A DNA stretch of 45,090 nt from Patescibacteria group bacterium. GTDB taxonomy: Bacteria > Patescibacteriota > Microgenomatia > UBA1406 > GWC2-37-13. The stretch covers positions 69,940 to 115,029 of the forward strand of contig BPJD01000004.1 of NCBI GenBank assembly GCA_026004435.1, read 5' to 3'. The notes under the pieces are model-generated. The model did no database searches. It was given only the letters and a program-made list of their open reading frames with translations, and had not been told where the DNA came from. The stretch's first letter is position 1, and every line of letters begins with the position of its first letter. The position numbers and the translations under genes were made by a program. This document shows positions 3,810-19,261 of the stretch, one piece after another.

Positions 3810-4625
3810 ATGAAAAAAAGAATTACTATTACTTTAGACAGCAATCTGCTAAACAAAATAGATAACTTAGCCTTAAATCTTCAAGGAGAGAACCGCTCAA
3901 GCGTGATTGAAAAGTTTTTATCTGAGTATTTAAAATCTAATATAAAAACTGCTGTAGTGCTGGCCGGAGACCCGAAATTAAAGAAAAATCAACCCATAAA
4001 GGCCTTAACCAGCATAAACAATAAGCCTGCTATTTATTATATTTTAAAAAAACTATCTAATGCTGGCATACAGGAAGTCTATATCTGTATAGATAAAAAT
4101 ACTGCTGAGCTAAAAGATAAAGTTAAAGCTAAAGAGTTTCCTGATCTTAAACTTAAGTTTGTTTTAGAACATAAAAGTTTGAATACAGGCGGAGCAATCA
4201 AACAACTTAAGAATAAATTAATCTTTCCTTTTTTAGTTTATTACGCTGACATCTTAACTAATCTTGATCTTAATAAATTGCTAAGTTTTCATATTAACTA
4301 CAAGCCATTGGCAACAGTTGTTGTAAGTCCAAGCACTAAGCCCAATTTGTTTGGACAGATCACTCTTGAAGGCATAAATCTTGAACATTTTTACGGCAAG
4401 CAGTCTCAACAAAAAAGCGTTATTGTCAATACTGGAATTTATGTTCTTGATCCTGAAATCTTTAAATACTTTCCTGTTGAAGACAAATTTGAACTGGATG
4501 CAGTACTGAAAAAGTTAATACCTTCAAAAAAAATAATAGGCTATATAACAAATAGTTCTTGGATAGACTTAGGCACCAGTGAAAAGATAAAAGACAATCT
4601 TAAAAACCTGGTCCTTGAAGATTAA
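3810..4625 (+). CDS. Ribbon-helix-helix domain fused to sugar-phosphate nucleotidyltransferase
   Basis: 271 residues in two domains. Residues 1-44 (MKKRITITLDSNLLNKID, then a helix pair with SSVIEKFLSEYL) look like a CopG/MetJ-type ribbon-helix-helix DNA-binding domain. Residues 46-268 resemble NTP_transferase (PF00483) enzymes such as mannose-1-phosphate guanylyltransferase or glucose-1-phosphate thymidylyltransferase. Visible motifs are the metal-binding Asp in YYADILTNLDL (D146), TGGAIK (126-131), VNTGIYVLDPEIF, FELD (227-230) and WIDLGT with D253. The usual GxGTRLxPLT nucleotide loop is replaced by LAGDPKLKKNQPIKAL (51-66), which keeps the Lys before the KP motif but loses the Gly-rich core. 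The partner glycan genes favour a role in nucleotide-sugar supply. The degenerate loop leaves room for a regulatory sensor without full activity. Confidence 0.72.
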   Translation: MKKRITITLDSNLLNKIDNLALNLQGENRSSVIEKFLSEYLKSNIKTAVVLAGDPKLKKNQPIKALTSINNKPAIYYILKKLSNAGIQEVYICIDKNTAELKDKVKAKEFPDLKLKFVLEHKSLNTGGAIKQLKNKLIFPFLVYYADILTNLDLNKLLSFHINYKPLATVVVSPSTKPNLFGQITLEGINLEHFYGKQSQQKSVIVNTGIYVLDPEIFKYFPVEDKFELDAVLKKLIPSKKIIGYITNSSWIDLGTSEKIKDNLKNLVLED

Positions 4626-4926
4626 AGATATACGCAACTATCTTGACTATTACAAATGATGATGTCAATAAAATCAAACCAATAATGGCTCCTGTTAATT
4701 TCCTTTTAGCGTCAGAAAACTTCTCAGAATTACCTTGCGAGTTAATTAACTCATAGCCAGCCATAATAAAGGTAAAAACAAGTATGATAGCTACAAACCC
4801 CATACCAAAATTAAACAACAGAGAAAGCAGATCCCAAATTGTTGTAATATCTGACCTCAATGGTCCTTTTATGGTTCTGTCTCCTATTATAATTTCCTGC
4901 GCAATTACAGTAAAAAACAATAACAT
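4600..4926 (-). CDS. VirB2/TrbC-like small pilin (PF18895 type)
   Basis: A 108-residue protein with two long hydrophobic helices (about residues 35-58 and 76-100). They are joined by a polar loop that reads NSQGNSEKFSDAKRKLTGA, then IIGLILL. The pattern 'GxxxxxSxGxxEKxxxAKxxxxxAxxGLxxL' between two helices is the hallmark of the small T4SS pilin-like proteins of CPR bacteria and mycoplasmas (Mbov_0395/TrbC type). The N-terminus is short and hydrophobic and could act as a cleaved signal. The ATG at 4926 lies 9 nt beyond the clp stop on the same strand. An AT-rich TAATAT sits just before it, so it may be co-transcribed or have its own start. Its 3' end overlaps the convergent gene by 26 nt. Expected role: membrane pilin subunit of a secretion apparatus. 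Confidence 0.7.
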   Translation of the reverse strand: MLLFFTVIAQEIIIGDRTIKGPLRSDITTIWDLLSLLFNFGMGFVAIILVFTFIMAGYELINSQGNSEKFSDAKRKLTGAIIGLILLTSSFVIVKIVAYIFNLQGPGF

Positions 4927-4935
4927 ACTTTTATA

Positions 4936-7900
4936 TTAAACTGCGGATTGAACTTTTTGTTGCGGCTCAGCATCATTTTTTTGTGTATTTGAGTTCTCTA
5001 CCGCAACAGTTTTTTGATTGTTATTTATTGTTATATTTTCAGATAAATCAGGTTGTTTATTGTTGACCTGACTCTCATTTTTATCATCTAGTTTATTATT
5101 AGGTTTTTTATCATTGCCAGCCGATAATATTTGATCATCCATAGACTCAAGCTTCCTTTCTGTATCAGCTAAAGAATTATTTTGATCTTTATAGATTAAA
5201 CCCTGATCTGTCTGATCCTCAGTTTTATCTAATTTCTGGTTTTTTATTTGAGCTTCAAAGTTTTGTGGCTGAGTATCACCTGCATCGTTTAAAGAATCTA
5301 TCTCTTTTAGACTGTTGCCGTAGGACAAACACTTAGGACAAATAGTTGTGGCAAAATCTACGACCTCAGTCTCAAATCTGTTGCCGCAGTTTTGACAGAC
5401 AAAAGTTTTTCTCTTAACATTATTAATAGTTTGATCCAGTTCTATTAAAGATGGATCAATTTTATTAAAGACAAATTTATTGTTCTCATAATCCAACTCT
5501 ATAAAATCGCCTGGCTTAAGACTACCTGATATAATCTGAGTTGATAGCACATTCTCAATATTTATCTGAATTGCCCTTCTTAACGGCCTTGCTCCAAATA
5601 CTGGATCAAAACCGAGTTTTACTATTGCTAGTACAGCTCTTTGTGTATAGGTAAAGCCAAATCCCTGCTCTGAAAGCCGCTTCTCCAAGTCTTTAAACTG
5701 AAGTTTTACGATTTCCTTCATATGCTCATACTTTAAAGGTTCAAACACAATAACTTCATCAAACCTATTAATAAGCTCTGGCCTGAAAAACTGACCAAGC
5801 TCATCCATAACCTTGGCTTTGATCCTTTTGTAAACATCTTCTTCAACTTTGCTTAACTCGTTTTTGTCTTTTTGCCAAGGATACTGACCTAAAATGTCAG
5901 ATAAGAGGTAAGTTTTCCATCCCTGATCTTCTTTGATCCAAACCTTTTCCTTAACAACTATTGCTTCTTTATTGTTGATTCTAGTATGCAGATCCCAGTA
6001 ATCTTCCGGGAATTTATCTTCTTTATTTAATAAAACTTCTTTGGCAAAATAATCTTTCAATGGCATCATCTTCCAAGTTTTTTCCTGCAGTTTTCTAACC
6101 CAGACCGTATCTCTTAATGAGATAACCTCTTTTGTGTTGTCAAAATAATGAGTCTTCCACCTTTCAGTTGGAAACTCACCTTCCTGATCAGCTGTTGATG
6201 CAATACTAAATCCTTTAAAATAACTTTTCAGATTTGTTGTTGTATAATCCTTTGATTTCAACTCTCTGATATAAAGCATATCACCTGCTGAGATATACTC
6301 TTTGTTTGATGAATAAGCCAAAGTGTCTACCTTATGAGGAAAACTAACCAACTCAGAGTCACTGATTCTTTTGTCTGCAAATAATTCCTGCAGAGTTTGT
6401 TTTTGCCAGTTTCCTTGTTTGTCTTTTAAATAAATATTATTGGCTTTAATAACTCTAAAACCAGTCTCTAACTCCTGCAGAACATCAATTATTCTCTCAG
6501 GCTCAACCTCGCTTAATCCTTCTTTAAGCAGTTCCTTTTGAATTGTTTTTGTCCCTATATTTGAGGTACAGATAACTATTGTATTTTTGAATGAGATAAC
6601 TCTGCCCTTATTGTCTGTCAGTCTGCCATCATCTAAGATCTGAAGCAGAATATTGAAAATATCAGGATGCGCTTTTTCTATCTCATCAAACAATACTACC
6701 GAGTATGGTTTTGTTCTAACAGCCTCTGTAAGTTTTCCGCCTTCCTCATAGCCAACATAGCCTGGTGGAGCTCCAAGCAGTTTTGCTACCTCATGTTTTT
6801 GCATATACTCAGTCATATCAAACCGAATCAGAGACAACTCATCACCAAACAACACCTCTGCCAAAGTCTTGGCCAACTCGGTTTTACCCACTCCTGTAGG
6901 ACCTAAAAACACAAAACTGCCGATTGGTCTTTTTTCAGATTTTAAACCTGCTCTGGATCTTCTTATAGCCTCAGACACTGATTTTACTGCTCCTTCTTGA
7001 TCAATCAGTCTTTGATGTATAATTTCCTCAAGTTTTAATAACTTCTCGGTTTCAGACTCAGTAATTTTTGATAAAGGAATACCCGTCCAAGATGAAATTA
7101 CCCGCTTTATAATTTCAGGTGTTACCTCAATATTGGAGCTAGCTTTTGCCTCTGCGTACTCTTCTTTTTTTTGTTTTAACAGATCCTGAGTGTCCTGAAT
7201 TTTCTTCATTAAGTTTTTGGCTGTTACCTTGTTTTTAGTTTTTTTGGCTTCATCAAGCTCTTGGTTTAGCAAAGATAATTTTTTCTCCAGCGACTTAATT
7301 TCCTCAGGCAGTGATATTAAAGGAAGCCTAACTGCTGCAGCCGCCTCATCTATTAAATCAACTGCCTTATCTGGCAAGAATCTACCTCCAACATATCTTT
7401 TTGATAAAACAACAGCTGTCTCAAGCACTGAGTCAGGAATATTTACTTTATGGTAAGCCTCATACTTATCTTTTAAAGCCTTAAGCATATTGACAGCTTG
7501 CTCAACAGTTGGTTCAGGCACATAAACAGGCTGAAATCTCCTCTCCAAAGCAGCATCTTTTTCTATGTACTTTCTATACTCATCTATGGTTGTTGCTCCC
7601 AAAACCTGTATCTCACCTCTGGCTAAAGCTGGTTTTAAAAAGTTAGAAGCATCCAAACCATTCTCACCTGCAGCTCCTGCGCCAACAATATTGTGAATCT
7701 CATCAATAAATAAAATTATCTGTCCCTGACTGGATGACACTGTTTCTATAATCTGCTTCATTCTTTCTTCAAACTCACCCCTATGACTTGCACCAGCTAT
7801 AACACTCATTAAATCCAACTGAAGTATTTTTTTCTCCAACAGATTATCAGGAACTTCTTTCTTTACAATTCTTTGAGCCAGACCTTCAACTATAGCTGTT

Positions 7901-8991
7901 TTACCAACACCTGCCTCTCCGGTTAAAACAGGATTATTCTTTCTTCTTCTTGATAGGATATGAATTATTCTTTCTATAATCTCTGATCTTTCAACAACAG
8001 GATCTAATAATCCTTGAGCTGCTTTTTCAGTCAGATCAATAGTAAACTTTGACAAATCAAAACCGCCTGAAGATTTATCCTGAGCATCTTTTTGTTCAAT
8101 CCTATTCTGGCCTAAAACCTTTTTTTCAAGTTTATCAATGTCAAGACCTACGCCTTTTAAAATTCTTGCCGCCAGACCATCGCCTTCTTTATAAACAGCT
8201 ATTAAAATATGTTCTGGAGAGATAAACTCATAGCCCTGCTTTCTTGCTATAACCAGAGAATCAGACAACACTTTTTTTACACGAGGGGCAGGCTGAATTG
8301 CTGTTGTTTTGATCTTATTCTTTTTTGGCGTTAAATACTTTTGCAGTTCAGTTTCTATTATCTGCACCTGAACCCCAAGCTCTGTCAGCAAAGAATAAAC
8401 GCCAGCATCCTTAACCAAACCAAACAACAAATGCTGAGTATCAACATTCTCATCACCAAGCTCTTTTGCTTTTTGCTGGGCAGTAAACATTACCCTGTTT
8501 GATCTCTGAGTTAAGTGAGTCAAAAAGTCAATCTTTTCTGCTTTGGACATTTCCTGCTTATCTACATCAGTCTGACTCTGATCACTTCTAGCTTTGTTTT
8601 CAGCTAATGTTTTACTGTCCTGACCTTGCACTTGAACAGATTGCTGGTCTGATTTTGTTTTTTGACCTGTATCAGGTTGCTGACCTAATTGACCTTGGTC
8701 TGTTTTAGTATCATTGGCTGACATATTATTAGAGGCTTCTGTTACATCTTGATCAGCGATAACTGCTGACTTATTAGAATCAGAGTTAACAACAACCTGA
8801 TCATTTTCAAAATTGACTGAATCAAGAGTTACTGGCTGTTGGTTTCTGTCAACAGGTGCAGTTGAGGTTGCAGTTGTTTGATTAACCACGGTTTGACTTG
8901 CAGTGCTCTGATTAGCTGAACCAGCAGGATCTTGCGTCTGAGACTTATTTGAACTTGAATTTGACGATATCTTTTTAATAAAATTTAACAT
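4936..8991 (-). CDS. Giant ClpC-like AAA+ unfoldase with repeat insertion and C-terminal zinc ribbon
   Basis: 1351 residues; ClpC is usually ~810. Order: Ser/Thr/Gln/Asp-rich disordered region 1-150; double Clp_N domain ~155-295; AAA1 with Walker A GEAGVGKT (358-365) and Walker B FIDEIH (428-433); a short coiled middle domain ~560-618, ClpC-like rather than ClpB-like; AAA2 with GPTGVGKT (697-704), LFDEIEKAH and sensor-1 TSN (809-811); a four-copy repeat insertion at 847-1060; FRPELINRF with the arginine finger (1069-1077); sensor-2 GARPLRR (1133-1139); a zinc ribbon with C1199, C1202, C1218 and C1221; and a disordered acidic/Asn-rich tail. All ATPase motifs are intact, so it should be an active hexameric unfoldase. 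It lies within a type IV secretion-like block. CATAAT, 8 nt before the ATG, suggests a leaderless mRNA. The ClpC-type call is firm; its role in secretion is inferred from position. Confidence 0.9.
5859..6453 (-). repeat. Four tandem ~52-57-residue repeats inserted in AAA2 of the Clp ATPase
   Basis: Residues 847-898, 899-955, 956-1009 and 1010-1060 align as four diverged copies. Shared landmarks are: an opening Val/Tyr/Ala-Ile; then aromatic-hydrophobic-basic (IYLK, LYIR, VWVR, VWIK); a Trp or Tyr about 8-10 residues later; Leu-x-x-(Tyr/Leu)-Phe-like (LQELF, LKSYF, LKDYF, LSDIL); Phe-Pro in the first three; and a closing Asn/Thr-Lys-Glu (SSNKE, DNTKE, INNKE). The copies sit between sensor-1 and the arginine finger, just after a Thr-Gly-Phe (843-845). 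I do not recognise the repeat family. Confidence 0.75.
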
Positions 8992-9031: not shown

Positions 9032-10438
9032 GTGGATAACAAACTTGAATTAATTAAAAAAGTTTTGATTGTTGCAATAATAATCGTTTTAATTTTGGCA
9101 GTTGCGTTATACTTTATTTTAAGCAGAAGAAATATAAATCAAAGTACTAATTCGACAGGGACTGTTGGAGAAAGTATAGAAACAAACACACTGCAAAACC
9201 AAAACAAAAACCAAGCATCAAAAACTGAAACAGATCAATTATCAGATGTTCAAAAAAAAATATTGGAACTAAACTTTAAAGAACAGGTAAATAATGCAAC
9301 AAATACTGAAGAAAAAGAACAAATTGTTCAAACCAAACTGCAGACACTATACGCCCTGCCATTTAACGAATCTGCGGCTGAAGAGATAAAAAGCGCTTTT
9401 ATAAATTTTTCGTCCCAAACTGACTTAGGAATTACTACTGGCAGTTCTGAACAAAACCAACCCCAAATAAGTGGAACTATTACACCAACTGCAGTACCAC
9501 AACCAAATAATATAGTAGTTAACAATGCTTTAGGTGAGATAATTGCAACTGATCTTGAAGCTATAAAAACAGTTATTAACAACGATGGTAAAGCAAGACT
9601 TATGAGGCAGTTTAACTCGTTATACATTACTCAAGATCCAAGACAATTAATGCAGGAAAGAAATGCGATTTTTTTCAGCAGAAACAGAAAAATAAATGAA
9701 GGACCAATTACTGATCAGGTTGAAAAGGCACTAACTGCTTTTCAAAATATAGATATTGACAGAGAAGCATTATTAAAGGATCTCCAGAACTTAAACCAAA
9801 ACTCAGTAGAAGATGTCAACAGGCTTCAGACCTTAGTCCAAAACAGTGTTCAAGAACAAATCTCAAGCCTGCCTGAAAACCCAACTCTTGATACCTTATT
9901 ATCGTACATAAGCCAAAAAGTAGGAGTTCCCTTTGGAGTGTTGAAAGCAATATTAATAATAGAAGGTCCTAGTTATTTAAACCTGTCATCTTATGAAATC
10001 CAAGACTATATTAAACCGGACTATGTTATTCCGGGTTGCGGCCCTAATATCTGTTCAGCAACAGGACCAATGCAGATGACAATAGGGTATGATAATAAAG
10101 GAGATTATGCCTGCAGTCAGTGCTGCTGGAATGGAAAATGTCTTAACACAAAAGGAGGATGTCCAAATGCCTGGCTCACTTATGGCTCTGCTGTAAATAA
10201 ATACGAAACAGAAAAAAGAACCCCAAATGCCTGCAATTTGCTTGACAACCTTTATGCTGCAGCAGAGAAAATTAAAACAGACAGCGCAACCAAATCCAAA
10301 AACACAAACTGGACTAAAGACGAAGTTTTTCGGGCAGCAGTAAGATATTATGGCAACTGTACTGTCACCTATGCCAGATTAAGCAATAAAACCTACTGTG
10401 ATTTTGTGTATGATATTTATCAAAGTTTAGGAGATTAA
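9032..10438 (+). CDS. Membrane-anchored VirB1-like lytic transglycosylase
   Basis: 468 residues starting at GTG (9032); no in-frame ATG precedes the first helix. A membrane anchor spans residues 11-30, with a basic SRR stop-transfer on its outer flank. Then come ~250 polar Gln/Asn/Thr-rich residues with coiled-coil character, and a C-terminal SLT-like domain from ~285. The likely catalytic Glu is E311 in IIEGPSYL. The GPMQM motif (345-349) matches the Gly-x-Met-Gln signature, and AAVRYYGN (435-442) corresponds to the Ala-x-x-Tyr-Asn region. The domain carries ten cysteines (336, 341, 361, 364, 365, 370, 377, 401, 443, 456), consistent with disulfides outside the cytoplasm. Such enzymes open peptidoglycan for secretion machines, and the next gene, 2 nt downstream, is VirB6-like. 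Function is well supported; enzymatic activity is not proven. Confidence 0.8.
   Translation: MDNKLELIKKVLIVAIIIVLILAVALYFILSRRNINQSTNSTGTVGESIETNTLQNQNKNQASKTETDQLSDVQKKILELNFKEQVNNATNTEEKEQIVQTKLQTLYALPFNESAAEEIKSAFINFSSQTDLGITTGSSEQNQPQISGTITPTAVPQPNNIVVNNALGEIIATDLEAIKTVINNDGKARLMRQFNSLYITQDPRQLMQERNAIFFSRNRKINEGPITDQVEKALTAFQNIDIDREALLKDLQNLNQNSVEDVNRLQTLVQNSVQEQISSLPENPTLDTLLSYISQKVGVPFGVLKAILIIEGPSYLNLSSYEIQDYIKPDYVIPGCGPNICSATGPMQMTIGYDNKGDYACSQCCWNGKCLNTKGGCPNAWLTYGSAVNKYETEKRTPNACNLLDNLYAAAEKIKTDSATKSKNTNWTKDEVFRAAVRYYGNCTVTYARLSNKTYCDFVYDIYQSLGD
10429..10433 (+). promoter_or_regulatory. Shine-Dalgarno site of the VirB6-like gene
   Basis: AGGAG lies 6 nt before the ATG at 10440, inside the last codons of the transglycosylase gene. 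It is one of the few clear Shine-Dalgarno sites in the window. It shows that internal operon genes can use SD-led initiation even though many first genes look leaderless. Confidence 0.65.
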
Positions 10439-10439
10439 T

Positions 10440-12254
10440 ATGATGCTGTTTTATAAACAATTACTAAACTTAACAAAGATTTTTTATAAAATACTGTTGT
10501 TTTTGGCTGTACTAATTATAATAGTAACCCTGTTTTACAAAGCCACAAACAAAGAGCAGATACTAAACAATACTGCAGATAAGCAACGAGACTATAATCT
10601 TGAATTAGCCCAAAAAGCCGCTAAAAATTTTGCGGACAAATTCGGACCAAACACAGCACTTGCAATAGAACAGATTTACTGTAGTTTAACAGGATACTTC
10701 TGCGAATCAACAAACGATAAGCCTTTAACCTACTATTTAGCAAAACCAATAGAACTAACTTTTGCTAATCTACCTCCGTCAGGCACAGCCTGGACACTGG
10801 CAAAATTAAAAGAAGTCAACCTAATACCTGAAACATATGCTCAAACCAATCTGCAAGGCATTATAACCGGAACAGGACTAACAGCAATTCTGCCGATTTA
10901 CGATATCTGGGCCAAGTTCAGAAACCTAGCCTTTTTCGTACTTATTCTGGCAAGTATGTTTATAGGCTTTATTATTTTATTCGGCATTCCTATGGGAGCA
11001 CAAGCAGAGATTACTATTCAGACAATTCTGCCTCGTATTGTAATAACAATAATTCTAATTTATTTATCCTTTCCTATAGTTGGTTTTCTGATAGACGCAA
11101 TGTACCTTACCACAGGATTAAGCATAAGTATTTTTTATGAACCATCTGTAACTGATTATGACAATCCTAAAATCCAACAACACATAAAAAATGTTTTCCA
11201 AGATCAAAACTTAAAACCCCTAGCCAACGAATATCTGACTTCATGCTTTGAATCAACCAACCCAGAAGAGTGTATAAACGCAAAAGGATCTGTTATCCAA
11301 CAGTATCTGCCAGAGATTAGAAGAGACAAAATTTCAGAGGTGCTTAACGCAGGAGTCTGGGATGTTTTTAAAATAATAAACCAACCGGGCCCAGCTTATT
11401 TACTGATTGAGTCTTATATTAACCTACTACCATTAGAGCTTAGAAAATATGCTGAATTAATATTAACTGCAGCAGCAGGATTAGTTGTATATATTTTAAT
11501 TGCAGGATCAGCTAATATTGCGTTTAATCTAATAGACGCAATAACAAAACTTATCGTAGGAGGAGAGGGAATTGCCGCTATCTGGAAAGTTATATTTAAC
11601 TCTGTTATATTTATAGGATTACTGCCTCTGGCTATTTTTCTTATTGCAACTATGTCACTTTTGTTTTTATCTTTTGCTATAGCTGGGTTTATAATATATA
11701 ATTACTTTTTGCTTATTTTCTACACAATGTTTGCTCCGATTTTGATACTACCAAATGTTATGCCCGGCAATAATGCCTTTGTCTCTTGGATTAAAAAAAT
11801 AATTGCGGCACTGATTGTTTTTCCTGTTACAGTAGCAATATTAATGGTAGCAAATTATATTATGACTGATCTACCTGCCAGAGGAGGCTTTTTTTTCAGC
11901 CCATTAGGAATTCAAATAGAAACATTTACTCTACCAATACTAATAGGGTTTGCCCTAATTTTCTCAATTCCTAAGATAGCTACTAAATTAAGATCAATGC
12001 TTGGACTTGAGGATTCTGGAATTTCTGATTTCAATATCTTTGCGCCTCTTAAGAGCGTTCCAGCCTTATTTGGGTTTAAAGACATAGCTAAACGATACTT
12101 GCAGACTAACCCATTATTAGAAAAAATTGGTGAAAAAACTGGATTAATCAAACAGAACGAGGTATTGGATGCAATAAATGACTATATTAGACAGCAAAGA
12201 CTACAAACAGTAGCAGGAAAAACAAGCGAGATAGTTGGAGGAGAAAACAAATAA
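10440..12254 (+). CDS. VirB6/TrbL-like polytopic T4SS membrane protein
   Basis: 604 residues with an N-terminal helix (16-33), a periplasmic-type segment with Cys81 and Cys88, and then about seven helices (near 160-182, 198-220, 337-357, 381-403, 405-437, 450-473 and 497-512). The segment IWAKFRNLAFFVLIL followed by ILPRIVITIILIYLSFPIVG (a Pro-Arg-Ile-Val core) is characteristic of the TrbL/VirB6-like proteins of CPR genomes. These form part of the inner-membrane channel of type IV secretion systems. A hydrophilic C-terminal tail of ~90 residues should be cytoplasmic. An SD site at 10429-10433 and the 2-nt spacing show translation with the transglycosylase gene. No VirB4/VirD4 ATPase is present in this window, so the machine is incomplete here. 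Confidence 0.75.
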   Translation: MMLFYKQLLNLTKIFYKILLFLAVLIIIVTLFYKATNKEQILNNTADKQRDYNLELAQKAAKNFADKFGPNTALAIEQIYCSLTGYFCESTNDKPLTYYLAKPIELTFANLPPSGTAWTLAKLKEVNLIPETYAQTNLQGIITGTGLTAILPIYDIWAKFRNLAFFVLILASMFIGFIILFGIPMGAQAEITIQTILPRIVITIILIYLSFPIVGFLIDAMYLTTGLSISIFYEPSVTDYDNPKIQQHIKNVFQDQNLKPLANEYLTSCFESTNPEECINAKGSVIQQYLPEIRRDKISEVLNAGVWDVFKIINQPGPAYLLIESYINLLPLELRKYAELILTAAAGLVVYILIAGSANIAFNLIDAITKLIVGGEGIAAIWKVIFNSVIFIGLLPLAIFLIATMSLLFLSFAIAGFIIYNYFLLIFYTMFAPILILPNVMPGNNAFVSWIKKIIAALIVFPVTVAILMVANYIMTDLPARGGFFFSPLGIQIETFTLPILIGFALIFSIPKIATKLRSMLGLEDSGISDFNIFAPLKSVPALFGFKDIAKRYLQTNPLLEKIGEKTGLIKQNEVLDAINDYIRQQRLQTVAGKTSEIVGGENK

Positions 12255-12258
12255 GCAA

Positions 12259-13950
12259 TTAAAAGAGCAGAAACTTAAAGATTGTATCTTCAAATATTAC
12301 TCTAAAAATCATATCTAACAGAAAACCGGCAAAGATGATCACAAGCAAACCAGTCAGACATCTTACTGCAGTTTGCTTAGCTTTAGAAACCTGATCTGCA
12401 TTTCCAGAGGATGTTTGAACCAAAAACCCTGCATAAACCAAGCATAAGATTGAAAAGATACCAGCCAGTGACAACAAAATACCTGAAGATAAACCAAACA
12501 AACCTTCTAAAGAAGGACTAATACAACCTAAAGCAGAGTAAAATCCACCACTCTTTGAGCATTGATCAATATTGTTATAACACTTATTCGTTAAAGAGGT
12601 ATTATTAAGATTATTGCAATAATTAAAACTGGCAGTAAGCAAGGCTGGTTCTTTAGAATCAAGCCTGTCAGAACAACGGCAACCTAATTCAGTTCTTACA
12701 CTTGCTATATCTCTACCTTTAACATCGTCCTCTTTTAACATCCTTCTTACTAACTTGCCTGATTTATTTTTATACTCTACCACAGGAACTCCCTGCAGGC
12801 AGTACTGTTCTCTAGAGAACTTGCTTGACTCTCCGAATTTTCTATCAATTATTTCTCCAGTATATTCTCTAACATCTTCTAAATAATTAGCAATGTCATC
12901 TCCAATAAACGGAACCTTAGAGATTATGCCAAAACCAACCATCCGAGTATCTGACTCATGAAAAAACCTAACTTCTTCAGGACTGCAACAGACTTTGTCA
13001 ATATAACCACAGCTTTTATCAAAAGGATTATAGTAATCAACTGCAACAGATATATCTGATTTCTTTTCCTCAAAATCTTTTCCTGACTGTTCTACTGCGT
13101 CATCAACACTTAATTCTTGCGGCCCAATAGAATCACTAGAAGCAATAAAACCTGATTCATCGCAGACAAACTTAAAAGATTTAACCTTACCTTCCTGAGC
13201 TATATTCATAAGTTCTGCTAAATCAGCAGATGAGGATAGAGTATTTAAGATTATACTCTTACCAGAAAACCCACTATTTTTTGACTTATCTAAGTTAGTT
13301 TCATAGTCTTCGATCTCAGATTTCTTTAAAAAGTAAACTTTATTAACGTCTAATTCCTCAACACTTTCAACACCTTGAACTCTCTTTAACTTTCCAGACT
13401 CAAACTCATATAAATAAGCTAAAAAATCGGCTTCTTGTTTATTATCATCTTCTAAATCAAAAATCAATGGCTGGGACTTGTATAATGTAATTTCTTGACC
13501 CGGTCTATACTCGATGTAAACTCTATTTGATCCTGCTTGATTATCATCAGATCCAGACCTTAATTCTTGATCAAGGTTAGCAGGTTGTTCTGGATTTATA
13601 GAAATATAATGATAAGTATCACATACTATTTCAGTTCCAGTTACAATAATATAAAATTTAGTATCTCGTAGTATACAATTATTCACTATAATTAATCTTT
13701 CATGTTGATTATCTGGAATAGATGGAAAATATGTTAAAATTCTATTCGTGTAAGCATCTGTCAAATTAACATAATTAGAACTTTCTATGGAATTAAGATT
13801 ATTATACAAAAAACATTTTCTTGATATATCTGTTGAATCATCTGTCTGAGCAAAGACCCCATTGATTAAAAAAACATTAGATAAAAGAATAAAAAGGATT
13901 AGAGTGATGAGTCTAAAAACCAATAAATTTTTTTTTGTATTAAACTTCAT
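12259..13950 (-). CDS. Secreted cysteine-bearing protein with C-terminal pilin-like membrane hairpin (copy A)
   Basis: 563 residues. Residues 1-35 form a signal peptide (basic MKFNTKKN, a long hydrophobic core, then VFAQ). A ~450-residue extracytoplasmic region holds paired cysteines including CCSPEE and CRC. The last ~85 residues are a two-helix pilin module: an AGIFSILCLVYAGFLVQ helix, the loop SSGNADQVSKAKQTA, then CLTGLLVIIFAGFLL. That loop matches the small pilin at 4600-4926. Just before it, SALGCISPSLEG is shared with the next gene. The two proteins are paralogs, separated by only 18 nt. The architecture suggests a large pilus tip, adhesin or sheath subunit built on a T4SS pilin base. 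No enzymatic motif is visible. Its end lies 4 nt from the convergent VirB6-like gene. Confidence 0.65.
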   Translation of the reverse strand: MKFNTKKNLLVFRLITLILFILLSNVFLINGVFAQTDDSTDISRKCFLYNNLNSIESSNYVNLTDAYTNRILTYFPSIPDNQHERLIIVNNCILRDTKFYIIVTGTEIVCDTYHYISINPEQPANLDQELRSGSDDNQAGSNRVYIEYRPGQEITLYKSQPLIFDLEDDNKQEADFLAYLYEFESGKLKRVQGVESVEELDVNKVYFLKKSEIEDYETNLDKSKNSGFSGKSIILNTLSSSADLAELMNIAQEGKVKSFKFVCDESGFIASSDSIGPQELSVDDAVEQSGKDFEEKKSDISVAVDYYNPFDKSCGYIDKVCCSPEEVRFFHESDTRMVGFGIISKVPFIGDDIANYLEDVREYTGEIIDRKFGESSKFSREQYCLQGVPVVEYKNKSGKLVRRMLKEDDVKGRDIASVRTELGCRCSDRLDSKEPALLTASFNYCNNLNNTSLTNKCYNNIDQCSKSGGFYSALGCISPSLEGLFGLSSGILLSLAGIFSILCLVYAGFLVQTSSGNADQVSKAKQTAVRCLTGLLVIIFAGFLLDMIFRVIFEDTIFKFLLF

Positions 13951-13968
13951 CTTAAAAACAAAAATTTA

Positions 13969-15666
13969 TTAAACAAGATAATTAAAAACTGAACTGCCAA
14001 AGACAAGTCTAAAAATCAGATCAAGCACAAACATTGAAAATATTATAACAATTAATCCGGTCAGACATTTTCTGATTCTAGTTTTTGACTCTGCTACCTT
14101 ATTTTCATCTCCAGCAGAGATCTGAATCACAAAGGCAGAAAAAATAAGACAAAGCAATGCAAAAATGCCTGAGACTCCCATAAGAACAGTGGAGATTAAT
14201 GATAATACACCCTCTAAGCTTGGGTTAATACAACCCAATGCAGTGTAAATACCATTATTGCTATTGCAGGTCTTAACATTTTCTGCGCAAATGCTGGCTA
14301 AAGAAGAGTCTGTCCCTAAATTCTGACAATAAGTATAGGCATCTTTTAAGTAAACTGTATCTGTATCATCAAGAGATGTAAGGCAGGTACAGGCCTTATT
14401 GTCCAACAAATCTGTTAAATCTCCATTAAAATCACGAGGTCTTAAGTATCTGGCAACTCTATTGCCCTGATCATCAGACTCATAAATGACAGGAAAACCC
14501 TGCAGACAAAAATTTTCTCTACTGATTTGGCTGGATGGCAATGATTGATTATCAGTTGAAGTTTGCCTAATTAAATAATTGGCAGAGTTTTCAATCTGAT
14601 TGGCTATTGGTGGACCTATTAATGGAATTTTTCTAATAGTATTTGTAAAACTAAATTTTTCAACTAAGTATCCTTTAATCTCCTCAGGTGGACAACAAAC
14701 CTGACCTTCTTTTCCACAGTTGGAGTCTGCTTTGAACGATTGGCTAGTATAATAACCAATACTGTAATTCATATTTGCTTGCTCTCGGACAATTTCAGAA
14801 CGAGTTGCTTGAATTGGTCCTTCAACAAAAGACAACTTGCCTCGTGAATCGCATTTTAGCTTAATATAAGAAATTCTGTCTTTATCAGCTAAGTAATCTG
14901 AATCAGAATCAAAAAAATAATAAAATTTAAACTCATTTGATCTACTTCGATCATAATAGTAACTTTTTAATCCTGTCAAAGTTATAAAAAACAGATAATC
15001 TTTAGGATTATCTATTCGATCATTACCCAATATCAGATCTATAGATAATTCTTGATTTATGCCTTGTGCATTTAATAGATAACTTGTTGAGGGTACAATA
15101 ATTCTTTTAGGATTTGTATCCGTATTATTTAGGTTGTTAACAAATATCAACCTTTTAGCAGCTAAGACAATCTCCTGATCTGCAGGTAAGTTTAACTTAA
15201 CACTATTAGCAGACAAGTTAAAATTTTTAAACTTAGACTCATCTAAAATATACACAAAAGCTAAACAATCAAGACCATCATAAGAATTTAAACCTATAGC
15301 AACTTTTCTATATCTGCAATCTCCATAGGGAATATAGGCTTGATTATCTTCTGGGTTAATAAAATAAAACTTTTTAGTATTTTCTTCTTTATCATACTCA
15401 GATTTAATATTAGCGAAAACACAGACATCTTCAGTCGAATTTTGACTATTTAAGTTTGTTTCAGATGATACCTGGCTATCTGAGATTGTCTCTGAATTTT
15501 CAGTAGAAACATTCTTATCTCCAACCCCTTTATACACTGAATTCATTGTTGAGGTTTCAATAGCCAACACAGATTCTGTAAATAAAAAAATAGAAACAAC
15601 CAAGATTAAAATAAACAATTTATTTCTGCTGTCCCAAAAATGGTTTAAAAAACTCCATAAACCCAT
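13969..15666 (-). CDS. Secreted cysteine-bearing protein with C-terminal pilin-like membrane hairpin (copy B)
   Basis: About 565 residues from the ATG at 15666; a TTG at 15687 would add seven residues. The N-terminus RNKLFILILVVSIFLFTESVLA is a signal peptide. Shared with copy A, in the same order, are a CCPPEE/CCSPEE cysteine pair, the block REQYCLQG/RENFCLQG followed by PV(V/I), a Cys-x-Cys, a (Y/N)YC(Q/N)NL segment, ALGCI(S/N)PSLEG, and the final helix-loop-helix with Gly-Asp/Asn and Lys-rich loop before a Gly-Leu-Ile/Leu-Val-Ile-Ile-Phe helix. The start overlaps the end of the upstream 1213-residue gene by 47 nt, so the genes are translationally linked. The duplication with divergence suggests two distinct subunits of the same surface structure. 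Confidence 0.63.
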   Translation of the reverse strand: MGLWSFLNHFWDSRNKLFILILVVSIFLFTESVLAIETSTMNSVYKGVGDKNVSTENSETISDSQVSSETNLNSQNSTEDVCVFANIKSEYDKEENTKKFYFINPEDNQAYIPYGDCRYRKVAIGLNSYDGLDCLAFVYILDESKFKNFNLSANSVKLNLPADQEIVLAAKRLIFVNNLNNTDTNPKRIIVPSTSYLLNAQGINQELSIDLILGNDRIDNPKDYLFFITLTGLKSYYYDRSRSNEFKFYYFFDSDSDYLADKDRISYIKLKCDSRGKLSFVEGPIQATRSEIVREQANMNYSIGYYTSQSFKADSNCGKEGQVCCPPEEIKGYLVEKFSFTNTIRKIPLIGPPIANQIENSANYLIRQTSTDNQSLPSSQISRENFCLQGFPVIYESDDQGNRVARYLRPRDFNGDLTDLLDNKACTCLTSLDDTDTVYLKDAYTYCQNLGTDSSLASICAENVKTCNSNNGIYTALGCINPSLEGVLSLISTVLMGVSGIFALLCLIFSAFVIQISAGDENKVAESKTRIRKCLTGLIVIIFSMFVLDLIFRLVFGSSVFNYLV

Positions 15667-18600
15667 AAGCAACAGGATAAACAACAAGTCCTAACTGAGC
15701 TATTGTTACTCCCATATGAACATTTTTCTGCAGACGAGTCAGATCAAACATCTCCCGCAGACTATCTACAGAATAATCTCCATAATAATCAAGAAAACCC
15801 TTTATGCCTAAAGCCTCAATATATCTATTAAGCTCAGCAATATCAAGAGAATACATTCGCGCTGGAGCACCGATCTGGTCCATTATCTTTCCTGCCATAG
15901 CAACATTATTACCTAAAGAAAACATTCCCAAGAGAGGCTTGAGAAAAAAATCATTTAAAAGACCAAGAGGTCTTCTTAAATTGGAGTTCTGTAAAAAGAA
16001 AGTTATAAACATCCCAGCCAGATAAAAATTGATTTTTTTTGCAGTTGCAGAATCAATTGAGCTTTTAACATAGCCTTTTACTTTATCGTGAAAATCTAAA
16101 ACACTATCTATATTTCCATCTACAGCAAACTTTTTTATAACTCCTGCAAAACCTTTGATAGTCTCAACAAGTTTTGTATACTTATCATACTGGTCATTTA
16201 CCAGTCTTGTCAATGCATTCTCCCCAGCCTCGCCAAACTTTGAGACAACAGCTTCAGTATCCAGATCAGCTGAAAAAGGATTAATGCCTCCTTTTGTTTT
16301 TTCCCATTCATAGGCAAACTGCAGAAAAAACCCATTAGCATCTCCAATATCAAAGATATGTTTAAACTCGTTTTGCGGAATAATCCCAAATAAACCATTT
16401 TTGCCAAAGACAGCATTTTTAACATCTTCTTTTCTAGAATCATCCAAAATGGAAAAATCACTCTCAATAATACGAATATCATTCATTGACTGTGGAGTTG
16501 AATTCTTTATTCTTTCGCTGGCATTCATATAAACTAAATTCATATCTTTGGAAAACTCAATTACTGCATCTTTAACGCTTCCACCATAAATAGGCACTAA
16601 TTTAGTTTCCATCCAATTATAAAAGTTCTTTAAAATATTAAAATTAGACTCACCCCACAAAGCTATAAGATCTTCTCGTTTTTCCAGAATCTCTTGTTTT
16701 TTAGAACCACTTAAACTGCCAAGCTTAGAATCGTCGTAAAATATTTCAGGATCAGTTATTAGCTGAGGAACAAGCTGATGAAGAAGCAAAATAAAATCTC
16801 CAGGATTTCTATGCAGATACTCAAAAAAAATCCTTCCTTTACCAGCCCATCTGGCATACTCTTTGGCCATAAAAAAGCTTGTTGCTTGTTTAGCGCCATC
16901 TTTTTGTATTTTGAAAAACTCCTCTAAGGGAAATTTTTTGCCAACCTTGTTTTTTAAGTATTTTTCCAGTTTTTCGATCTTAAAACCTCCAATGCTGAAA
17001 ATTGATTCTACTGAACGCTTAACTCTTTCATCATCTTTTTCAGAAAACCACCACCATAAAGAAGCTGTGCCTAACTCCTTTACAGAGATGGCAAAGAATG
17101 CTTCCCATTGCTGTGGTCCCCACTTAGAGTCTGGAATAAAATTATTATTTTGAAAAAAAATAGAATGCTGTTGGGGGTTGTTTTTTATAATATCTTTGAC
17201 CATTTCTAGATGGTCCTGAACTACCCAGCCTCCTCTTGAAGCATAATCTGCAGGAATATCTATAATATTTAACAAATCCCTAAATGTAGCAAACCTTTCC
17301 CATCTGCGATCAGTTCTAAAAAAGAAGTTGATAAAGCCTTTAAGAGATTTATCATAAGCCCATTTTACCGGCTTAATTTTTCCAACAAAACGAAGAGGAC
17401 GAAATAATTTTTCAAAAAACCTGCCCAAACCGCTTTTTCTTAGCTTTGAGTATAAGATTCTTTTTTTATTCAACATCTCCTTGTAAGTATTAGGAGATAT
17501 ACCGGTAGGAAACAGCAATCCAAGTAACGGTGACTTTCTCTTTCTAAAATGCGTAGGAGTTACCATATAATCAAGCGGAGCAAAATCAGACAGCATAAAC
17601 TGAATATCAGGATTGTGCTCTAACCTAATCTGCGTTGTTAAAGTACGCACTCCTTTATCATCGTCCCTTGGTTTGGCTGTGGCTATAATTGATTCATCCT
17701 GCAGTGTCATAGTGCCATAGGCTAAACCATAAGCAACAGCCATCTCAATTTCCCAATCCTCATAACTCTCATTATTATTTTCAGCCAACTTTCTTACTAC
17801 ATCAGTCAGTTCCTGCTTAATTTTTTCTGTATCAGGCATTGAGTAAAGTAGTTTCTCAGCAGAAAACTTGCCAACAAACAAGTCAGCAGGGAGTTTAAAA
17901 TCAGACTCAAACAGTCTTCTGCGAAGATATAAAGGTATAATCTTTCTGGCTTTCTCCATTACAGGAAACAAATCATTATAAAACAACCGCAGATTTGAGG
18001 CAGGAATTGATTTTGTCAGACCAACAATCTGTCTTAAAGCCTCATCTGAGTTTGCCCAGATAGGCACATTATGAAAAGTACCTGCCAAGTTAAGCAGTTC
18101 CCTTGGGTAATCACCAGAAATATAATTAAAGAATTTTTTAATTTCTGCATCATTATCAAAGACCAACTCAGCTACACTGCCTAAATGATTAGTCAACCAC
18201 TCTGTTAATATGCCTATATACTGCTGTACAACTGCTCTTTCTGGTACTTTTTCAAAAACCTCTGAGGCATTTTTGTGGATAATCTCTATGGCTTTATAAA
18301 TGTGCTTTGTGCTTAATCTAAATAATTTTCTTCTATCTATAGAATATCCTTGAATCTGATTAGTTTGAGGATCCCTAATCTCAACAATTATAGAGTTAGG
18401 ACCTTCAAGCAAACTGCTAATACTAAAATCTTTTGCAGCTTCTCTTAATAGATTCTGGAAAAACTCATCAGCCAAAGCATGACTTGCTCCTATCATAGAA
18501 GCATATCTTGAGATAAGTTTTTCTACTTCAAAGTAAACTATTTCTTTATCAATCTCTTTTAAAATCTCAACCAACTCCTCTTTAGAAAAAACAATATCTT

Positions 18601-19261
18601 GATTTTTTTCATCCCTAAGCGCTTTAATATACTTAACCATCTCTCTTAAACCATTTAAATAGTTGGTTGAGTAATCGACAAAGTACATTCCTGTAAACTG
18701 CGCAGTATCTCCAAAAATATCGCGCAAAAATATATGAGTATAAATCTGAAAAAAATCTTTAGCTAAAGGTTTGAATCTCTTTTGCTTAAACAGATCAAAA
18801 AAATCCTTATTAATTCTTCCTAAATCAGGGTTTATAAAAAACTTCAACTTACTATTGCGCTTTAGCCTATAAACTTCTCTTAAAAAATCAACCAAAAGAT
18901 TTAAATCATAACCGACATTGGTAGAAGTATTATCCAACTTTTTTAACAACAGAACTATAGTCTTATAAAAAGCTGAAATATCTCTTTCTTTTTTATCAGA
19001 GTATATCTCAGACAATAAAAAACCAATTTCTGCTAATTTTTCTTTTTTTTCATCTTCGCTCTTTTTTGAAAAATCCGACTCATCTTCTACAGTACCTTTG
19101 TTACTGTCATAAATAAAAACCTCATCAAATTTCTCATCAGATAACTTGTCTTTTACAACTTCAGGAATGCTAGCTTTTCTAATTTGCCCCCTTACATTTT
19201 CTAATTCATACTGAAACTTAGTTTTTAACTCAAAAAGTTCAATAAACTCTGCGTTACTCAT
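15620..19261 (-). CDS. 1213-residue orphan protein with membrane-attached C-terminus
   Basis: I do not recognise this family. There is no signal peptide, and the first ~1050 residues are charged, mostly helical and rich in Lys, Glu, Phe and Asp. Two hydrophobic segments lie near the end (~1075-1090, FYLAGMFITFFLQ, and ~1185-1205, TIAQLGLVVYPVAYGFMEFF). It is therefore probably a large cytoplasmic protein docked to the membrane by its C-terminus. No P-loop, zinc site or protease motif was found, so it is not a VirB4-type ATPase. A TATAAT 6 nt before the ATG at 19261 makes it the leaderless first gene of a unit running into the two pilin-tailed proteins. That context suggests a scaffold or platform of the secretion structure. 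Confidence 0.75.
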   Translation of the reverse strand: MSNAEFIELFELKTKFQYELENVRGQIRKASIPEVVKDKLSDEKFDEVFIYDSNKGTVEDESDFSKKSEDEKKEKLAEIGFLLSEIYSDKKERDISAFYKTIVLLLKKLDNTSTNVGYDLNLLVDFLREVYRLKRNSKLKFFINPDLGRINKDFFDLFKQKRFKPLAKDFFQIYTHIFLRDIFGDTAQFTGMYFVDYSTNYLNGLREMVKYIKALRDEKNQDIVFSKEELVEILKEIDKEIVYFEVEKLISRYASMIGASHALADEFFQNLLREAAKDFSISSLLEGPNSIIVEIRDPQTNQIQGYSIDRRKLFRLSTKHIYKAIEIIHKNASEVFEKVPERAVVQQYIGILTEWLTNHLGSVAELVFDNDAEIKKFFNYISGDYPRELLNLAGTFHNVPIWANSDEALRQIVGLTKSIPASNLRLFYNDLFPVMEKARKIIPLYLRRRLFESDFKLPADLFVGKFSAEKLLYSMPDTEKIKQELTDVVRKLAENNNESYEDWEIEMAVAYGLAYGTMTLQDESIIATAKPRDDDKGVRTLTTQIRLEHNPDIQFMLSDFAPLDYMVTPTHFRKRKSPLLGLLFPTGISPNTYKEMLNKKRILYSKLRKSGLGRFFEKLFRPLRFVGKIKPVKWAYDKSLKGFINFFFRTDRRWERFATFRDLLNIIDIPADYASRGGWVVQDHLEMVKDIIKNNPQQHSIFFQNNNFIPDSKWGPQQWEAFFAISVKELGTASLWWWFSEKDDERVKRSVESIFSIGGFKIEKLEKYLKNKVGKKFPLEEFFKIQKDGAKQATSFFMAKEYARWAGKGRIFFEYLHRNPGDFILLLHQLVPQLITDPEIFYDDSKLGSLSGSKKQEILEKREDLIALWGESNFNILKNFYNWMETKLVPIYGGSVKDAVIEFSKDMNLVYMNASERIKNSTPQSMNDIRIIESDFSILDDSRKEDVKNAVFGKNGLFGIIPQNEFKHIFDIGDANGFFLQFAYEWEKTKGGINPFSADLDTEAVVSKFGEAGENALTRLVNDQYDKYTKLVETIKGFAGVIKKFAVDGNIDSVLDFHDKVKGYVKSSIDSATAKKINFYLAGMFITFFLQNSNLRRPLGLLNDFFLKPLLGMFSLGNNVAMAGKIMDQIGAPARMYSLDIAELNRYIEALGIKGFLDYYGDYSVDSLREMFDLTRLQKNVHMGVTIAQLGLVVYPVAYGFMEFFKPFLGQQK

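Follow-up and report, generated by a model that had tools for sequence, protein, structure and literature searches.

The fate of a chain unfolded by a Clp motor is determined by the exit-face loop of that motor. In ClpA and ClpC, the ClpP-docking loop falls between sensor-1 and the arginine finger. Other Hsp100 motors are ClpP-free and serve secretion or translocation machines, including Plasmodium HSP101 in PTEX and ClpV in T6SS. The docking loop of ClpA and ClpC has been located on the exit face, in the large AAA+ domain (PMC10149685, PMC9035409), and about 5 residues are found at the same position in ClpI-b (PMC10149685). Here, a ClpC-like unfoldase of Patescibacteria is described in which a domain predicted to be a four-bladed propeller occupies this site. 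The gene lies in the window, i.e., the whole stretch of 45,090 nucleotides that was analysed, and the coordinates of its parts and neighbours are summarized in Table 1.

Table 1. Features of the unfoldase gene and its neighbourhood, numbered from the first letter of the window.
Feature	Position	Strand	Basis or remark
ClpC-like Hsp100 unfoldase, 1351 aa, two-ring	4936..8991	-	intact ORF
N-terminal peptide, 10 residues, candidate membrane-targeting	8962..8991	-	relatives MAGFFDFIKK/MALLDFIKK
Insertion, residues 822-1053, sensor-1 to arginine finger, ClpP-docking-loop position	5833..6528	-	alignment to T. thermophilus ClpB D2
Predicted propeller blade 1, residues 835-872, with TGF 843-845 hairpin	6376..6489	-	model and profiles
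Predicted propeller blade 2, residues 888-927	6211..6330	-	model and profiles
Predicted propeller blade 3, residues 945-985	6037..6159	-	model and profiles
Predicted propeller blade 4, residues 999-1036	5884..5997	-	model and profiles
C-terminal zinc ribbon, residues 1197-1222, CQNC...CPKC	5326..5403	-	weak Zn_ribbon_8 match under curated cut-off
T4SS pilin, VirB2-like	4600..4926	-	match to PF18895 exceeds cut-off; lies 9 bp downstream of unfoldase gene
Membrane-anchored protein, lytic-transglycosylase-like C-terminus (VirB1-like)	9032..10438	+	by eye; no Pfam match
Polytopic membrane protein, VirB6-like	10440..12254	+	by eye; no Pfam match
Secreted region and VirB2-like C-terminal hydrophobic region	12259..13950	-	by eye
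Secreted region and T4SS_pilin domain	13969..15687	-	PF18895

From N- to C-terminus, the protein consists of a hydrophobic and basic peptide, a disordered linker, Clp_N, AAA1 with a short M coiled coil, an AAA2 interrupted by the insertion, D2-small, a zinc ribbon and a disordered tail. Clp_N, two AAA+ rings and a short coiled coil between the rings are the arrangement of ClpC, and D2-small is of the ClpB type. The best NCBIfam model was that of ClpB (TIGR03346), whose cut-off of 1232 bits was not reached (929 bits), so that the protein does not qualify as a ClpB equivalog. A separate ClpB-like protein, which has a long M domain and lacks the N domain and the docking loop, is encoded in the same genome. 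The D2 core matches the structures of ClpB, ClpC and ClpA with Z scores of 28-32 (up to 32.5 to ClpB and ClpC). The Walker A/B pairs and arginine fingers of both rings are intact, as are sensor 2 and the pore-loop regions, and on these motifs the unfoldase should be an active threading motor. A third Clp-type ATPase of about 750 aa was observed in many relatives (L111, G026:C1:701500-705200; L112, G019:C5:125500-130000); its N-terminal hydrophobic segments resemble membrane anchors, the first AAA+ module is degenerate, the second Walker A is intact and no ClpP-docking loop was seen.

The preliminary description of this DNA had placed four diverged repeats at the position of the ClpP-docking (IGL/VGF) loop, and its landmarks were found to be correct (TSN at 809-811, TGF at 843-845 and FRPELINRF at 1069). 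Direct alignment to the D2 of T. thermophilus ClpB located the insertion at that site: 178 residues align through the post-sensor-1 helix, and after a single break the alignment resumes at the pre-arginine-finger helix, with 232 residues (822-1053) facing 5 in ClpB, i.e., about 227 extra residues. The fourfold repetition was likewise recovered. Self-alignment of the insert gave a best score of 82, compared with 33 ± 5.6 for 200 shuffles (maximum 59), and profiles built from three blade classes recovered the fourth in 22/22 homologues with medians of 28-40 bits, the best of 2000 shuffles reaching 8-11; all four blades of the window protein were found in this way. The repeats had been described as 52-57 residues long, and these bounds shifted a little, each blade comprising about 38-41 residues with variable linkers between.

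An AlphaFold2 model of residues 809-1068, computed with 22 homologues, is built of four units, each with four strands and one short helix; pLDDT averages 83 and for the most part exceeds 90 in blades 2-4. Its top Foldseek match is hemopexin (1hxn, E 1.2e-8). In VIA-align, the 25 entries with Z 12.9-15.9 were without exception hemopexin-like domains or plant albumin-2, and no other propeller exceeded Z 7.0; the best match superposes 172 residues at 3.0 Å (Z 15.9), in agreement with four blades of four antiparallel strands each in the prediction. A second model comprising D2 and the insert retains a normal D2 core and places the propeller between the post-sensor-1 and pre-arginine-finger helices, at the docking-loop position rather than away from it. 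A propeller of the WD40 or TolB type, guessed at from 'SPxG' motifs, was ruled out by the four blades and by hemopexins scoring far above six-bladed designs and other propellers. PF00045 did not match the window insert or the 22 homologues at E<=1, and no sequence relatives were found in Pfam, NCBIfam, PHROGs or the PDB, hemopexins in the PDB included. The disulfide that joins the first and last blades is likewise missing, with no conserved cysteine in the alignment and none in the window insert. In the viral structure library, the search yielded nothing beyond propellers of a generic kind and MMP-like hemopexin domains encoded by viruses. Thus a repeat family that had at first not been recognised can now be assigned a strongly predicted hemopexin-type fold, membership in the hemopexin family being unproven because no sequence library recognises it.

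Standard ClpP is itself missing from the lineage. The curated model PF00574 found nothing in the window's own genome and matched in 3/57 relatives, compared with 12/14 control genomes; the three matches in relatives were rejected as evidence for a housekeeping ClpP, being divergent Clp-fold proteins. No [IV]G[FL] docking tripeptide is present in D2 of the window protein, which thereby lacks both the LGF/IGF/VGF motif and the ClpP partner that characterize ClpC. The TGF preceding the repeats, earlier regarded as a possible remnant of the docking loop, aligns instead with a conserved 'SPRGREI' hairpin of blade 1, and relatives devoid of the insert are free of the tripeptide too. Propeller-less relatives, in which ClpP is also absent, belong to the same nearly ClpP-free clade, indicating that the propeller is no one-for-one successor of ClpP. 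Of the earlier proposal that the insertion replaced ClpP with another partner, the loss of ClpP is thus upheld and a new partner is plausible, whereas a direct exchange is not. The presence of a predicted propeller at the docking-loop site in a lineage without standard ClpP suggests that the motor was given a new partner or task.

The propeller is encoded at 35 named loci of Candidatus Roizmanbacteria, Woesebacteria, Microgenomates/Patescibacteria and one Gottesmanbacteria, and lies within the Clp reading frame at every locus long enough to judge. Among 380 sampled genomes of the phylum, it was detected only in the window's own genome and one family member, besides one weak match, and no clear stand-alone copy was found. 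The weak match (L113, G335) is partial and lies in a different, membrane-anchored protein of 257 aa, possibly representing another propeller family. In a Clp-core tree, proteins without the propeller are interspersed among those that bear it; outgroups L091, L092 and L101 carry it as well. An ancestral gain followed by about five or six losses is the likeliest history read from these sequences, although counting alone cannot separate gain from loss. The propeller of the window genus is strongly diverged (about 27-35% identity to the others). In comparison with the sister of the window genome, with synonymous sites near saturation, dN/dS was about 0.14 in the insert, about 0.58 and 0.34 in the disordered ends and about 0.01 in the D2 core; by this measure, the insert is under purifying selection.

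Two natural variants deserve description. In G005 (L120, G005:C194:2500-6018), the strand 3-4 loop of blade 1 harbours an entire second propeller, and the blade profiles accordingly match one half of a blade first, then four complete blades, the remaining half and three more complete blades. In G040 (L121, G040:C14:8000-13500), the gene has shrunk to 353 residues: the N-domain and AAA1 are absent, Walker A is damaged (GPTGPAKT), and the Walker B acid pair and the arginine finger are gone. Four recognisable blades are retained, and M50-like and pilin genes still adjoin at the same locus. This copy is either decaying or a propeller with a task of its own.

With regard to the cellular setting, nearly all members of the family, with or without the propeller, start with peptides such as MAGFFDFIKK, MALLDFIKK or MLNFIKK, followed by a long disordered linker. 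We take this hydrophobic and basic peptide to resemble the membrane-targeting sequence of MinE. Its hydrophobic moment is 0.34-0.62 in most members and beats shuffles weakly, indicating modest amphipathicity; a putative membrane tether through this peptide is thus a reasonable reading of the sequences.

The unfoldase gene is embedded in a T4SS-like cluster (Table 1). A pilin homologue adjoins clpC, within about 1.2 kb, in 20/20 of the relatives' regions, and the pairing persists under rearrangement, e.g., with the pilin upstream and inverted. With a PF18895 pilin next door in the window as well, the gene is linked to T4SS genes. The pilin also adjoins the short Clp forms that lack the propeller, and the link to T4SS is therefore a trait of the motor, not of the propeller. 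Housekeeping genes for a RecF-like protein and an amino acid kinase are kept in the same neighbourhood too, and synteny by itself is therefore weak. T4SS are known in Patescibacteria and VirB2 arrays are abundant in Microgenomatia; Clp is not mentioned in the main text of that report (PMC12102498). Upstream of the unfoldase gene lie the VirB1-like and VirB6-like proteins of Table 1 and, at positions 12259-15687, a tandem pair in which each protein has a large secreted region and ends in a VirB2-like pilin region, with a PF18895 match in just one. Elsewhere in the cluster, positions 15620-19261 encode a 1213-aa protein that adjoins YidC and has no Pfam match. A small membrane HExxH protein (M50B-like) was observed between clpC and the pilin in many relatives (L039, L043, L045, L053 and others). 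As a universal partner it was rejected, being absent from the window's own genus.

Taken together, we tentatively favour, at somewhat less than even confidence, a ClpP-independent and probably membrane-tethered Hsp100 unfoldase in which the docking loop has been replaced by the propeller. The hexamer would thread its substrate through both rings and release the chain instead of feeding it to ClpP. On the exit face, six propellers would form a collar around the pore exit, a placement that follows from the known position of the docking loop. Such a collar would most likely serve as a docking or handling platform, joining the motor to a partner or guiding the chain. The most probable setting is the cell envelope with its T4SS-like pilin locus, since the N-terminal peptide is MinE-like and a T4SS pilin gene accompanies the unfoldase gene. 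Both of these traits are common to propeller-less members and hence describe the motor rather than the propeller. The motor has been retained through about five or six propeller losses, which argues that its core task is independent of the propeller.

Other readings of the propeller can be weighed against this collar. It could be an assembly or regulatory domain that sits between adjacent D2 modules, or bridges two hexamers at the exit face, controlling ring formation or a resting state without an outside partner. Six propellers on one exit face would be close neighbours, and a dispensable regulator would be consistent with its repeated loss from motors that were themselves retained; moreover, head-to-head assembly is a frequent means of repressing Clp unfoldases, mediated by M-domains in the cases which that source describes (PMC5699869). 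Nevertheless, G040 keeps its propeller despite a degenerate ATPase, and propeller-less relatives retain an intact motor sequence; on the whole, this reading is unlikely. Slightly less probable is a built-in exit chaperone, in which the propellers hold or refold the chain leaving the pore. It would suit the position at the exit and the absence of a protease to receive the chain, but no conserved exposed hydrophobic groove was identified in the propeller. Four-bladed propellers, besides, are known mainly as binding scaffolds, which also counts against a chaperone.

A further reading, considered very unlikely, is a new ATP-dependent membrane protease in which the propeller serves to dock the motor on the membrane HExxH protein. 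In many relatives, the M50-like gene follows clpC directly downstream, and it also lies beside the degenerate ATPase and propeller of G040. However, it is absent from the window genome and its genus sister, both of which bear the propeller, and can for this reason offer at best a partial answer. It adjoins propeller-less clpC and is also present in clpC-less genomes, e.g., G022 and G028, and its Pfam M50B match stays below the cut-off. Finally, the insert evolves faster than the core and has been lost several times independently, as might be expected if the domain were tolerated, close to neutral and devoid of any defined task. This too is highly improbable, given the dN/dS of the insert, a four-blade architecture intact across three families and the outgroups, and the four blades retained in G040.

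At the exit loop, this motor carries a whole folded domain in a lineage free of standard ClpP, and its natural variation includes several losses, the nested propeller of G005 and the ATPase-degenerate copy of G040. What an Hsp100 does when no protease follows it can thereby be approached through domain deletions and pulldowns. Motor and propeller fold are each known; their combination at the docking-loop site is new as far as the curated families, solved structures and literature searched, in which no propeller-Clp fusion was found.

Compared with ClpC and ClpA, the window protein shares Clp_N, two AAA+ rings, the short coiled-coil M region and the D2 structure, and differs in the missing docking tripeptide, a genome without ClpP and a propeller in place of the docking loop. 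With ClpB and ClpI-b it shares an exit loop without the LGF motif and is hence predicted to work alone, without ClpP; the propeller-less relatives resemble these two, the stretch from sensor-1 to the arginine finger being 41-73 residues long in them. Unlike ClpI-b, it carries a folded domain of 227 residues at the loop, together with the N-terminal peptide and the zinc ribbon. The predicted four-bladed fold is that of the hemopexin domains of MMPs, hemopexin, vitronectin and plant albumin-2, whereas identity is 6-14%, PF00045 and the conserved cysteines are wanting, and the domain is cytosolic and lies inside an AAA+ module. The D2 of HSP101 is also among the structural matches (6e10, Z 28.0). 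We know of no exit-loop propeller in HSP101 or ClpV, from which the window unfoldase differs further in that its T4SS role is read solely from gene neighbourhood. It is a decidedly improbable extension of the collar reading that a membrane-tethered Hsp100 with six propellers at its exit hands unfolded proteins to a T4SS-like apparatus or extracts pilins for it; if true, this motor, serving the T4SS of putatively epibiotic bacteria, would be a bacterial counterpart of the PTEX motor.
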